Shown here: positions 2,005 to 56,964 of the stretch, one piece after another
How positions within the stretch are numbered: the stretch's first letter is position 1
Layout of the letters: each line of letters starts with the position of its first letter
Assembly (NCBI RefSeq): GCF_000419585.1
Contig: NZ_ATTH01000001.1
Location: forward strand, 952,005-1,016,004
Direction of reading: 5' to 3'
Length of the DNA: 64,000 nt
Origin: Salisaeta longa DSM 21114
GTDB lineage: Bacteria > Bacteroidota > Rhodothermia > Rhodothermales > Salinibacteraceae
The notes under the pieces: model-generated
What the model saw: only the letters and a program-made list of their open reading frames with translations
What the model was told of the DNA's origin: nothing
The model's database searches: none
Program-made: the position numbers and the translations under genes

Positions 2005-2189
2005 GTGCGGTGCGCGCGGCGCGGACGCCCATGCCGGGGGCGCGGTAGTGGGCGCTGTAGTCGCCCCACTCCCGCGTGGCAAGCCGGAGGCCGCCAGGCC
2101 CGTCGCTGCGGGTGCGGCCGCTGCAGGCCGTTGGTCGTAGCTCGGATACGTTATTTCCGCAGACCCTGTGCTGACGCGCGCTTGCTTCA

Positions 2190-3225
2190 TGGCTTTTCAT
2201 GAATTTGCCATGAAGGCGTTTTGCGCAACCCTATGTAAAAGAACACTTTACGCGTGTGCCGCAGCCCCCCCGCCTTGAGCGGACATTTTAGGTCTGCAAT
2301 GCGCGTTGAATTCAACGGCTGTGCACTGAATTCAACACCACGCAATTGCCGGGTATATAAGCGGCTGGAGAATGTCAAGCGCGGCGGCCCGCTTTTTCTG
2401 TGCGGTGGGCTGGCAGGCGTGAGAGGGTGCCCGGCTGGGGAGATTGCGCTTTCAGCATGACCTAAAGGCCCCCGCGTCGTTCGCATCCGCTCACTCCTCG
2501 CAATGACATTGCAGGGTCCGCGAAAAGCCGCGCGTTGATGGTTCAAATGGCTGTTCGGGGTGGTGTGATCAAACTGCACGCCCAACGCACGAAAACAGCA
2601 AATTCCTCTCTTGTCATCGCGAGGAACGACCGAAGGGAATGACGCGGGGGCCGAAGGTCATATCTCTGATGGGGCCGGAGGTCATGCCCGTGGTGAGATC
2701 TCCATGTACGAAGGCAAACATCTCGTTACGGAAATTGCTCGACTGCGGAGATTGCGCTTTCAAGCATGACCCAAGGGCCCCCGCGTCGCCTCTGGCTCCT
2801 CGCAATGACATGAATGGATAGATGAAAGCACGAACGTTGATGGTTCAGATGGTTGTTCGGGTTGGTCTGCCCATCTGCACGCCCAACGCCCCAAAGCAGC
2901 AAATTCCTCTCTTGTCATCGCGAGGAACGACCAGAGGGAGTGACGTGGCGATCTCCGTGTACAGGCAGAAACGCCTTGTTGCGGAGATTGCACCTACGGC
3001 ATGACCTAACGGCCCCCACGCTCACTGCGTTCGCTCGCAATGACAACAGTGGTTGATGAAAAACGGAGCGTCGATGGTTCCGAAGGCTATTCGGGGTGGT
3101 GTGCCCATCTGCACGCCCAACGTCCCAAAAAAGCTCAACGCTTCTAATTATCGCGAGGATTGAAGGGCCTTGGTCGTGCCATGGGTCCAAAGTGAACGAT
3201 GGGGCCGGAGGTCATGGCTGAAGCC
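2190..3225. repeat. Gene-free cluster of dispersed inverted-end repeats
   Basis: About 1 kb without a supportable gene is built from at least four partial or complete copies of one repeat. Two are nearly complete: 2610-2811 and 2911-3046. Each begins CTTGTCATCGCGAGGAACGA and ends with CTCGCAATGACA, which is an imperfect inverted match of the beginning. Internal blocks GATCTCC(A/G)TGTAC and GCGGAGATTGC recur. A right-end-only copy ends near 2509, and a decayed copy runs from about 3145 to 3225. Copies are separated by a conserved spacer containing GATGGTTC and CTGCACGCCCAACG. More copies lie at 37848-38235. The structure resembles a small non-autonomous (MITE/BIME-like) family. Confidence 0.75.
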
Positions 3226-53676: not shown

Positions 53677-53767
53677 CGCTTGATAACTTCAACCACGGTT
53701 AACAGCAGAACGCCCGGTCTTCGTTATCATGAAGCGTGTTTGTCCTTCTGGTTGCCTCCTTTGTGCC

Positions 53768-55150
53768 ATGCGTACCCTCCGCACCGCCGCCCTTGCGCCC
53801 CTTTGGCTGCTTCTAACCTGCACGGCCCTTCTCGCCCAAGATGCCACGTCGCTGCTGCGCTCTGGCCCCATGGTGGGCTACGGCACGCACCGCGAGGTGG
53901 CCGTGTGGCTGCAAACCACGCGCCCCGCAGACGTGCAGCTTCGCTACTGGAGCCTCACCGACCCCTCCACCGACAATCCGGCCATTCGCCCCGACCCGGA
54001 TACGCTGCTGACGCCGGTGCACCACACCACCGCCGCGGGCGACCACATTGCCGAGTTTACGATCGCGCACCTCGAACCCGGCAACACCTACCGCTACGAG
54101 GTGATTCTGAACGGCGTGACGATCGACCGGCCCTATCCGCTGCGCTTCCAAACGCAGCAGCTGTGGCAATGGCGCACCGATCCACCGCGCTTTACCGTGG
54201 CCGTGGGCTCCTGCGCCTACATCAACGACCCGCCGTACGACCGGCCCGGCGAGCCCTACGGCGGCGACTACCGCATCTTCGAATCCATTGCCGCCCTGAA
54301 CCCCAACCTGATGGTGTGGCTGGGCGACAACGTGTACTACCGCGAAGTGGATTGGGCCACGCCCACCATGATGAGCTACCGCTACGCCCACACGCGCCAG
54401 ACGCCCGAGATGCAGGCGCTCCTGGGCAGCACGCACAACTACGCCACGTGGGACGACCACGACTACGGCCCCAACAACTCGAATCGCTCCTACCGGCTGC
54501 GCGGCGCGGCGCTCGACATCTTCAAGCGCTACTGGGCCAATCCCAACTACGGGCGGCCCAACGTGCCCGGCGTCTTTGGCAAGTTTCAGTGGAACGACGT
54601 GGAGTTCTTCCTGCTGGACGACCGCTACTACCGCTCGCCAAACGATGCGCCCACTACCGACGAGAAAACCATGTGGGGCGAGGCGCAGCTCCAATGGCTG
54701 ATTGATGCGCTGGCCACGAGCGATGCGCCGTTTAAGATCGTGGTGAACGGCGGACAGCTGCTCAACCCCGCCAACCGCTACGAGGCCCTGTCCAGCTTCC
54801 CCGACGACCAATCCGACCTGCTCAGCGCCATTCAGCAGCGAAAGATTGAGGGCGTCGTGTTTCTCTCGGGCGACCGGCACCACACCGAACTGATGCGCTA
54901 CACCCCGGAAAATTTCTATCCGCTCTACGAGTTTACGAACTCGCCCCTCACGGCTGGCGCAGCCAACGTAAACGAGGACAATCCGCGGCGGATTGAAGGG
55001 ACGCTCGTGGAACAGCGCAACTTTGGCACGCTCACCTTTAGCGGGCCGCGCACAGACCGCACGCTCACCATTCGTACCTACGACATCGACGGCGCTTTGC
55101 TATGGAAGCGGAGCATCAAGGCGCAAGACCTTCAGCTGGACGACGAGTAA
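53768..55150 (+). CDS. PhoD-like alkaline phosphatase/phosphodiesterase
   Basis: The 460-residue protein has a Sec signal (MRTLRTAALAPLWLLLTC...LLAQ), an N-terminal Ig-like PhoD domain (SGPMVGYGTHREVAVWLQT) and a metallophosphatase domain. The latter shows VAVGSCAYIND, VWLGDNVYYREVDW, ATWDDHDYGPNNSN and LSGDRHHTELMR, the metal-binding residues of PhoD. It should hydrolyse phosphate esters outside the cytoplasm. The 3' end and 36 bp of downstream sequence are duplicated at 56891-56964. Confidence 0.88.
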   Translation: MRTLRTAALAPLWLLLTCTALLAQDATSLLRSGPMVGYGTHREVAVWLQTTRPADVQLRYWSLTDPSTDNPAIRPDPDTLLTPVHHTTAAGDHIAEFTIAHLEPGNTYRYEVILNGVTIDRPYPLRFQTQQLWQWRTDPPRFTVAVGSCAYINDPPYDRPGEPYGGDYRIFESIAALNPNLMVWLGDNVYYREVDWATPTMMSYRYAHTRQTPEMQALLGSTHNYATWDDHDYGPNNSNRSYRLRGAALDIFKRYWANPNYGRPNVPGVFGKFQWNDVEFFLLDDRYYRSPNDAPTTDEKTMWGEAQLQWLIDALATSDAPFKIVVNGGQLLNPANRYEALSSFPDDQSDLLSAIQQRKIEGVVFLSGDRHHTELMRYTPENFYPLYEFTNSPLTAGAANVNEDNPRRIEGTLVEQRNFGTLTFSGPRTDRTLTIRTYDIDGALLWKRSIKAQDLQLDDE

Positions 55151-55186
55151 ACCGGTTTCCTTCGTGGTTGATTTGTAAACGGGGCG
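55113..55186 (+). repeat. phoD 3' end, original copy of a 74-bp duplication
   Basis: This segment covers the last codons of phoD and 36 bp beyond. It matches 56891-56964 over the same 74-bp length (both contain GACCTTCAGCTGGACGACGA and GGTTGATTTGTAAACGGGGC), with only a few substitutions. It directly abuts a folC-derived fragment (55188-55244). Confidence 0.9.
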
Positions 55187-55244: not shown

Positions 55245-55281
55245 AAAAACATGAAGTGACCGTTCTATCGCAGAACAATAA

Positions 55282-55320
55282 AAAAGCCCAGCCTCGGTAG
55301 CGCTCCGAGGCTGGGCTTTT
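55282..55320. terminator. Bidirectional intrinsic terminator between phoD and asnA
   Basis: AAAAGCCCAGCCTCGG pairs perfectly with CCGAGGCTGGGCTTTT across a 7-base loop. The flanking A-run and T-run give a U-tract on both strands, so it can end phoD and the leftward asnA transcript. Confidence 0.93.
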
Positions 55321-55338: not shown

Positions 55339-56361
55339 TCACAGCAGAGGAATGCCCATGTCTTCCAACTCGGCGCGCATCTCGTCAGACCAGATGCTGG
55401 CTTGCACCTCGCCGATGTGGGCTTTGCGTAGCATGAACATACACACGCGCGACTGCCCAATGCCGCCGCCAATGGAGGGCGGAATGGACCCATCGAGGAT
55501 GCCTTTGTGAAACGCCTGATCGCTGTAGTGCTCGCGGCCTACGTGCTTAAGCTGGCGCTTGAGCGCCTCTGGGTCAACCCGGATGCCCATCGAAGAGAGC
55601 TCCAGCGCGCGCCCGCGCACGTCGTCCCACACCACAATGTCGCCGTTGAGGCCCGGCCCCTCTGCCGTTGGGGTAGTCCAGTCGTCGTAGTCGGCGGCGC
55701 GCAGGTCATGCGGATCGCCTTCGGGCAGCGGCGCGCCAATACCTATAACGAAGATGGAGCCGTGCGCGCGTGCCGCGGCGTCTTCACGCTCCTTCGGCGT
55801 CTTATCCGGGTAGCGCTCGGCCAGCGTTTCGGTGTGAATGAAAGTGATCTCTTCCGGCAGACGCGGCGCCAGATCGGGGTAGGCGTGGGCCATTTCTGAC
55901 TCCGTGTAGCGGAGCACGTCGTAAATCGTGCGCACCGTCTGCCTCAGGAAGTCCAGCGTCCGTTGTTCTGCGGTGATGCGTTGCTCCCAGTCCCACTGAT
56001 CCACATGTACGCTGTGAATTTCACTGATGCTTTCATCCTTGCGGATAGCATGCATATCGGTGAGAACGCCTTCGCTCACGGGGATATCGTAGCGAGCCAG
56101 CTGGGCACGTTTCCATTTGGCAAGGCTGTGCACCATCTCGTACTTGTCGTCAGAGAACGTGGTGTGGAAGCTTACAGGTTCTTGCGTGCCGGCGAGGTCA
56201 TCCTGCAGGCCGGTGCCTACGCGGAGCGCTTTGGGCGCGCTGATTTTGATGAGCGAGAGACGGTCGGCGAGCGCATCGCCAAATAGGCGTTTAATGCGTG
56301 CGGCGGCGCGCTGCGTCTCGACTACGCCGAGGACAGGGGTGTAGGTTGCTGTGGTAATCAT
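55339..56361 (-). CDS. asnA: Aspartate-ammonia ligase (asparagine synthetase A)
   Basis: AsnA makes asparagine from aspartate, ATP and ammonia. The 340-residue protein has the class II tRNA-synthetase-like fold: SAPKALRVGTGLQDDLAGTQ, KWKRAQLARYDI, VDQWDWEQ, LPEEITFIHTETL, GLNGDIVVWDD and SIGGGIGQSRVCM near the end. Length matches the family (about 330-345). ATG 56361 gives MITTATYTPVLGVV. The leader upstream on the same transcript contains an Asn-rich peptide and a terminator, indicating attenuation. The gene lies in a block flanked by phoD/folC duplications. The degradative ansA is 4.8 kb away. Confidence 0.95.
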   Translation of the reverse strand: MITTATYTPVLGVVETQRAAARIKRLFGDALADRLSLIKISAPKALRVGTGLQDDLAGTQEPVSFHTTFSDDKYEMVHSLAKWKRAQLARYDIPVSEGVLTDMHAIRKDESISEIHSVHVDQWDWEQRITAEQRTLDFLRQTVRTIYDVLRYTESEMAHAYPDLAPRLPEEITFIHTETLAERYPDKTPKEREDAAARAHGSIFVIGIGAPLPEGDPHDLRAADYDDWTTPTAEGPGLNGDIVVWDDVRGRALELSSMGIRVDPEALKRQLKHVGREHYSDQAFHKGILDGSIPPSIGGGIGQSRVCMFMLRKAHIGEVQASIWSDEMRAELEDMGIPLL

Positions 56362-56433
56362 GGCGCTTATCGTTGGTTGATAGTGTGAGCGATCACGATC
56401 AAGCGCCCGCCCTGCATCAGGCCGCCAGGCAAT

Positions 56434-56468
56434 AAAAAAACCCACCGGCACCTGATGGCCAGCGGGTT
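56434..56468 (-). terminator. Intrinsic terminator (attenuator) in the asnA leader
   Basis: In the transcript AACCCGCUGGC (56468-56458) pairs with GCCGGUGGGUU (56449-56439), 11 bp with two wobbles and an 8-base loop, followed by a run of seven U. It lies 73 bp before the asnA ATG and 31 bp after the Asn-rich leader stop, so it can terminate transcription before asnA. Confidence 0.88.
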
Positions 56469-56498
56469 CACTCGAATACGGTACGGGAGTATGCGGTG

Positions 56499-56645
56499 CT
56501 ATCCGCCGGCTGTCATGGCGTTGTTATTCGCGTTCAAATTCAAATTTGAATTCAGATTCGCATTCACCCATACGTTGGCCTGCGCGCTGCATACCGGGGC
56601 GTGCAGGCAGGAGAAACCGACGGATATGTGGGGATGAATGCTCAT
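56499..56645 (-). CDS. Asn-rich leader peptide of asnA (attenuator peptide)
   Basis: A 48-codon open frame from ATG 56645 to TAG 56499 ends A-N-V-W-V-N-A-N-L-N-S-N-L-N-L-N-A-N-N-N-A-M-T-A-G-G. Ten Asn codons fall within 19 residues, with both AAU and AAC used. The last codons (ACA GCC GGC GGA) form GCCGGCGG, which can pair over 8 bp with CCGCUGGC, the 5' arm of the following terminator. Stalling at Asn codons would leave this segment free and block termination; reading through to the stop would mask it. That is the trp/his-type attenuation layout, here for asparagine. A shorter GTG start at the VNAN segment is possible. Confidence 0.82.
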   Translation of the reverse strand: MSIHPHISVGFSCLHAPVCSAQANVWVNANLNSNLNLNANNNAMTAGG

Positions 56646-56704: not shown

Positions 56705-56890
56705 AGATGGGCTTTTATTTGCTCTGGATCCCGGTATTTACTCTGGATCCCGGATCGGGGTCCGGGATGACTTGTGCGGGATGAGGCCCGGAATGACGTG
56801 GATGGGGGAGCGTATGGGCGCGGGTTAGGTCGGCATCTGGCTTATTTACTTTGCCTGTCATCCTGAACGTGATTTAGGATCCAGGACGGG
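56705..56890. repeat. Second dispersed-repeat type (GGATCC-containing)
   Basis: CTCTGGATCCCGG occurs twice within 30 bp (56720s and 56740s). A CCCGGA/TCCGGG inverted pair and GTCATCCTGAACGTGATTTA then GGATCCAGGAC follow. This kind of CTGGATCCCGG/TGTCATCCTGAA block recurs in many bacterial genomes as an intergenic repeat. No gene is seen in 56646-57018. Confidence 0.55.
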
Positions 56891-56964
56891 GCATCAAGGC
56901 GCAAGACCTTCAGCTGGACGACGAGTACGCCCCTTTCCTTCGCGGTTGATTTGTAAACGGGGCG
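56891..56964 (+). repeat. Second copy of the phoD 3' end, before folC
   Basis: This is the 74-bp partner of 55113-55186. It carries a stop-mutated copy of the last phoD codons and the following GGTTGATTTGTAAACGGGGC, and lies about 55 bp upstream of folC. With the folC fragment after phoD it marks both ends of the asnA-bearing block. Confidence 0.9.

Follow-up and report, generated by a model that had tools for sequence, protein, structure and literature searches.

The 64-kb stretch of DNA analyzed here (the window) carries, upstream of asnA, what is very probably a ribosome-mediated, asparagine-specific transcription attenuator of that gene. The predicted element combines a leader open reading frame (ORF) rich in Asn codons with four RNA regions that can pair in mutually exclusive ways (Table 1).

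Table 1. Elements of the predicted asnA attenuator and its locus in the window, and the tandem attenuators of one Bacteroidales locus
Feature	Position	Strand	Basis
Leader ORF, 48 codons + UAG	56499..56645	-	translation
Region 1, TATCCGTCGGTT (leader nt 20-31), 12-bp pairing with region 2 (protector helix 1:2)	56615..56626	-	
Asn-codon cluster, codons 24-42, AAT 6 + AAC 4, proposed sensor	56520..56576	-	
Region 2, AGCCGGCGGATA, covering the final leader codons and the stop	56500..56511	-	
Antiterminator 5' strand, GCCGGCGG, within region 2	56510-56503	-	
Region 3, terminator 5' arm, AACCCGCTGGC	56458..56468	-	
Region 4, terminator 3' arm, GCCGGTGGGTT, and seven-U tract	56434..56449	-	
asnA, aspartate-ammonia ligase (340 aa), proposed regulated gene	55339..56361	-	TIGR00669 354.4 bits + PF03590
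Terminator 3' of asnA, AGCCCAGCCTCGG...CCGAGGCTGGGCTTTTTT	55280..55320	-	
Tandem attenuators before one asnA	L048:1917-2046 and 2099-2213		

The working of the switch, from leader translation and stalling to how efficiently the terminator acts and in which direction the response runs, is inferred as follows. Transcription would start shortly 5' of the leader, and a ribosome would translate the leader behind the moving RNA polymerase. When Asn-tRNA(Asn) is plentiful, the ribosome would read through the Asn codons as far as the stop codon and cover region 2; region 3 would then pair with region 4, forming the terminator and ending transcription short of asnA. If Asn-tRNA(Asn) runs short, the ribosome would stall within the Asn cluster, its leading edge just short of region 2, and the free region 2 would form the antiterminator with region 3, so that transcription reaches asnA. 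Without translation, region 1 could hold region 2 in the 1:2 helix, which would favor termination by default.

The asnA product scores above the TIGR00669 cut-off of 293 bits, and the gene forms a single-gene unit because its own terminator ends the transcript. In the window's genome, a search found AsnRS but no AsnB scoring above the family cut-off; free Asn therefore apparently comes from AsnA, and the charging of tRNA(Asn) would be the natural signal for controlling AsnA. The enzyme itself contains 1 Asn in 340 residues, compared with 10 in 48 for the leader. The segment holding asnA and the leader is bracketed by a 78-nt direct repeat (92%; copies at 55109-55186 and 56887-56964) that derives from the 3' end of a PhoD-like gene (53729-55150, plus strand), and its upstream half has a G+C content of 54-58%, compared with 65-70% in the surroundings. 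This arrangement resembles a scar left by an insertion that brought in asnA together with its switch.

The leader (56645-56499, minus strand) translates as MSIHPHISVGFSCLHAPVCSAQANVWVNANLNSNLNLNANNNAMTAGG, followed by the stop codon. The sequence-only reading had described ten Asn codons within 19 residues of a 48-codon leader, and translation reproduced this exactly, to the base. As in trp-type attenuators, codons for the end product are thus abundant in the short ORF, with 10/48 specifying Asn and kept as Asn in relatives. No other short ORF on either strand of the 64-kb window is Asn-rich (at least 5 Asn in 20), and a terminator follows this one. Its ATGAGC start is conserved at two loci from the same family (L002 and L003). 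The -10-like hexamers TATGTT, TATTCT and CATCAT lie 9-10 nt 5' of the leader ATG in the window (~56661-56646, minus strand) and at the equivalent site in L002 and L003, and at so short a distance the leader mRNA may be nearly leaderless. A scan for the sigma-70 consensus promoter 5' of the window leader gave no match. Farther 5' in the window lies a repeat-like GTCATCCCGGACCCCGATCCGGGATCCAG (56800-56720, minus strand), which resembles dispersed intergenic repeats; in Hymenobacteraceae, a TATACTTG box is located ~30-40 nt 5' of the leader.

An intrinsic terminator separates the leader from the structural gene: positions 56468-56434 read AACCCGCTGGC-CATCAGGT-GCCGGTGGGTT and are followed by seven T, so that the 11-bp, seven-U terminator first noticed by eye of a model lies where it had been placed. 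The same holds for the antiterminator, in which GCCGGCGG (56510-56503) pairs over 8 bp, one of them G-U, with CCGCTGGC (56465-56458). This complementarity between the leader end and the terminator 5' arm exceeds that of shuffled sequences (p=0.010), and the antiterminator strand begins 9 nt past the last Asn codon, so that a pairing which shares a terminator strand sits just 3' of the control codons. A third, protector helix competes with the antiterminator: the 12-bp 1:2 helix (56626-56615 with 56511-56500; p=0.002 vs shuffles) is mutually exclusive with it and has a probability of about 1 when the leader prefix of the window is folded. Taken singly, the 1:2 helix is non-significant in L002 (p=0.49) and L003 (p=0.32).

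To follow the proposed switch, only the RNA 3' of a ribosome mask was folded, at the moment when region 3 is made. At all nine loci with a located region 2 (9/9), the predicted probability of 2:3 pairing was 0.75-1.00 with the ribosome stalled at the Asn codons and 0.00 with the ribosome at the stop codon, the latter value following partly from the mask geometry. In full-length folding the terminator is thermodynamically favored in several states; the decision must therefore be kinetic, as in trp. A ribosome stalled at the Asn codons of the window lies 3' of region 1, and simple masking therefore does not explain how stalling breaks the 1:2 helix.

Within the window's own lineage asnA is rare, being present in 3/60 near relatives and in 3/245 genomes of the class, of which the window's genome is one. 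In all three asnA-bearing genomes of the family (3/3), an Asn-rich leader comes with an intrinsic terminator and with a leader-end segment complementary to the terminator 5' arm, and the AsnA proteins of the relatives are only 59-64% identical to that of the window. In L003 (genome G006), the leader MSTDLYVAAGLHGSLALPNNGARVANGRNNNSNSNLNWNLPPDASGS precedes the terminator AGCCCGCTGGC-tccggt-GCCGGCGGGCT, whose 5' arm is complementary to the leader-end GCCAGCGGGT over 10 bp. In L002 (genome G011), the leader MSKRLHTTTAPNGTGRPVQGHLGPVGVNLNPASNLNNGSSNNRAFSRAGDS precedes GCCCGCCGGC-cgac-GCCGGTGGGT, and GCCGGTG provides complementarity over 7 bp, which is singly non-significant as an antiterminator (p=0.25). 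Apart from the ATGAGC start and the Asn codons, the leader peptides of the family align poorly.

A further sample of about 135 asnA loci covered other Bacteroidota and also a few Pseudomonadota. The same layout recurred in Hymenobacteraceae, at 27 loci (for example, leader MRHFRNIRQNNNSNNNIIRDWKAIAPWEK) that include one identical pair, and at the Bacteroidales locus L061 (leader MLKGFFINNNNNNCPP). A second Bacteroidales locus, L048, contains two successive Asn leaders, MIKINNNLFNNLNDNYIRAGRLLL and MREVTFSFNNNNNNNRPPPMASVTLL, both followed by a terminator of their own, and a weaker version occurs in L089, where 4 Asn in 18 residues are accompanied by a terminator. The layout is absent from Bacteroidaceae, Prevotellaceae and most other loci of this sample. 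An Asn-rich ORF before the asnA of Paludibacteraceae (L009) was rejected, as it has no terminator. For asnB as a second target, none of 30 loci from about 250 genomes has an Asn-rich ORF with a terminator; at one asnB locus (L191, genome G208), a 15-codon ORF, MIELIKCTNHNNNNN, ends in HNNNNN ~12 nt before the gene, again without a terminator, and is possibly a chance occurrence or a translational variant. In the window's family, Hymenobacteraceae and Bacteroidales, the comparison of relatives that had been suggested along with the initial reading recovered the Asn run, the terminator and helices that exclude one another.

In all the DNA retrieved, we looked for ORFs that start with ATG, span 12-60 codons and contain six or more Asn in 20. 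The 600 nt upstream of asnA hold 33 such ORFs, many of them closely related and representing about four independent lineages, and an intrinsic terminator lies downstream in 32/33. Elsewhere, about 2.2 million strand-bases contain 13, and none of these (0/13) has a terminator. No other amino acid shows such an association of leader and terminator upstream of asnA. These counts bear on the view that a low-complexity AAT/AAC-rich ORF and the ordinary terminator of an upstream transcript precede asnA by chance. AAT-rich repeats do arise easily, and the G+C content of the segment (54-58%) is below that of the adjacent DNA, but chance would have to account for the recurrence in independent lineages of the same order and spacing with unrelated RNA sequence, for terminators at 32/33 ORFs before asnA vs 0/13 elsewhere, and for an interval between leader and asnA without any other gene; we regard it as extremely improbable.

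The spacing of the attenuator is conserved while its sequence is not. In every lineage the antiterminator strand starts 8-16 nt past the last Asn codon, which matches how far the leading edge of the ribosome extends beyond the A site, and the strand itself differs by lineage (GCCGGCGG, GCCAGCGGG, GGAAGGCT, GGGAGG or GGCGG). Among Hymenobacteraceae, the changes at Asn positions are mostly AAT/AAC exchanges, and the GGRAGGC motif is read in one frame in 22 loci and in another in 5; it is therefore kept as RNA. The automatic antiterminator search mis-scored several members of this family that have an Asn codon past the motif near the leader end, and the motif is present in their alignment. Judged from these alignments, the Hymenobacteraceae leader appears to be kept first as a peptide, in its Asn stretch, and then as RNA, in GGRAGGC. 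The 1:2 helix recurs with 15 bp in L048 (p=0.001) and 8 bp in L061 (p=0.034), and it covaries across 26 Hymenobacteraceae sequences, with 14 both-side changes compared with 4.1 in shuffles and 1-2 when slid. Compensatory changes had been anticipated in both helices; they are clear for 1:2, but the antiterminator is nearly invariant within Hymenobacteraceae and shows no covariation there, so that its support comes from the different sequences across lineages.

An Asn-rich leader might also report another cause, such as general ribosome slowing, antibiotics or a self-stalling Asn-rich nascent peptide, with the same antiterminator outcome. Leader attenuators that respond to antibiotics are described for bmrCD (PMC4191407) and msrD (PMC10314930), and stalling of any cause would act alike here. 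However, the peptides share their Asn content only, differing in order, spacing and other residues, and the regulated gene makes Asn. Although a little less remote than a chance arrangement, a signal other than asparagine supply is thus very unlikely.

The attenuator also follows the gene. In a tree of 62 AsnA proteins, leader-bearing genes occupy one part, and the leader state changes twice, compared with a mean of 16 in shuffles, which argues that leader and gene were inherited together; some inner branches of this part are weakly supported, L002 and L061 form long branches, and L089 was scored leaderless despite its weaker version. Two Hymenobacteraceae genomes with an AsnA from another branch have no leader. 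It is fairly likely that an undescribed Asn attenuator stayed with one asnA lineage, comprising the window's family, Hymenobacteraceae and Bacteroidales, while its helices were rebuilt with new sequence, and that it was doubled in one genome; the window may hold gene and switch through horizontal transfer. AsnA contains 1 Asn in the window's family, 3-5 in Hymenobacteraceae and 6-21 where leaderless. Leader-controlled AsnA is thus mostly Asn-poor, a trend that is confounded by G+C content and to which L048, L061 and L089 are exceptions.

Finally, a non-ribosomal element (a T-box, riboswitch or RNA-binding protein) could control the terminator, the Asn ORF being incidental. T-boxes do an equivalent job in Firmicutes, and the leader holds further hairpins. 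Yet Rfam scans of the window and its relatives found no family above threshold, so that the T-box covariance model recognizes neither, and a survey reported no T-box in 7 Bacteroidetes/Chlorobi genomes (PMC2494555). What is conserved, moreover, is the Asn frame and not the RNA sequence, and we consider such an element as improbable as chance. A RybB match in the same scans, at E 2.5, was discarded as a chance hit.

The trp/his-type mechanism is known; the predicted asparagine specificity is undescribed in the literature searched. Full-text searches of open-access papers, covering their main texts, gave no description of an Asn-specific leader attenuator, and an unnoticed prediction may exist. 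Main-text passages of a broad attenuator survey (PMC2965389) and of a survey of Actinobacteria (PMC1262725) mention none, the latter presenting trp, leuS and ilv leader attenuator candidates. Closer to the window, transcriptome maps of Flavobacterium psychrophilum (PMC9723704) and Bacteroides thetaiotaomicron (PMC7366714) report putative leader peptides and short ORFs in long 5' UTRs, and the former suggests attenuation for amino-acid operons; their main-text passages name neither an Asn leader nor asnA. The predicted system would add asparagine to the amino acids sensed through leader-peptide attenuation and would show the trp-type design at work in hosts for which it is poorly documented. 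It would also offer a clear case of regulatory logic conserved while sequence is replaced, and opens the control of asparagine supply to testing in Hymenobacter species that can be cultured.

The trp, his, leu, thr and phe operons of Proteobacteria are textbook examples of control by leader-peptide attenuation. The asnA system shares with these classical attenuators a short ORF with codons for the product, strand-sharing protector, antiterminator and terminator helices, and an intrinsic terminator before the gene; it differs in the amino acid (Asn), the gene (asnA) and the hosts (the window's family and Bacteroidota), and no sequence relationship is claimed. Asparagine genes of Firmicutes are controlled by T-box riboswitches that respond to uncharged tRNA(Asn). 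These likewise act by transcription antitermination, but involve no ORF translation, and a T-box was not detected at the asnA of the window. In E. coli, asnA is under the control of AsnC. This control is asparagine-responsive, too, but it is exerted by a protein regulator at the promoter, whereas the asnA leader described here would act through RNA attenuation.
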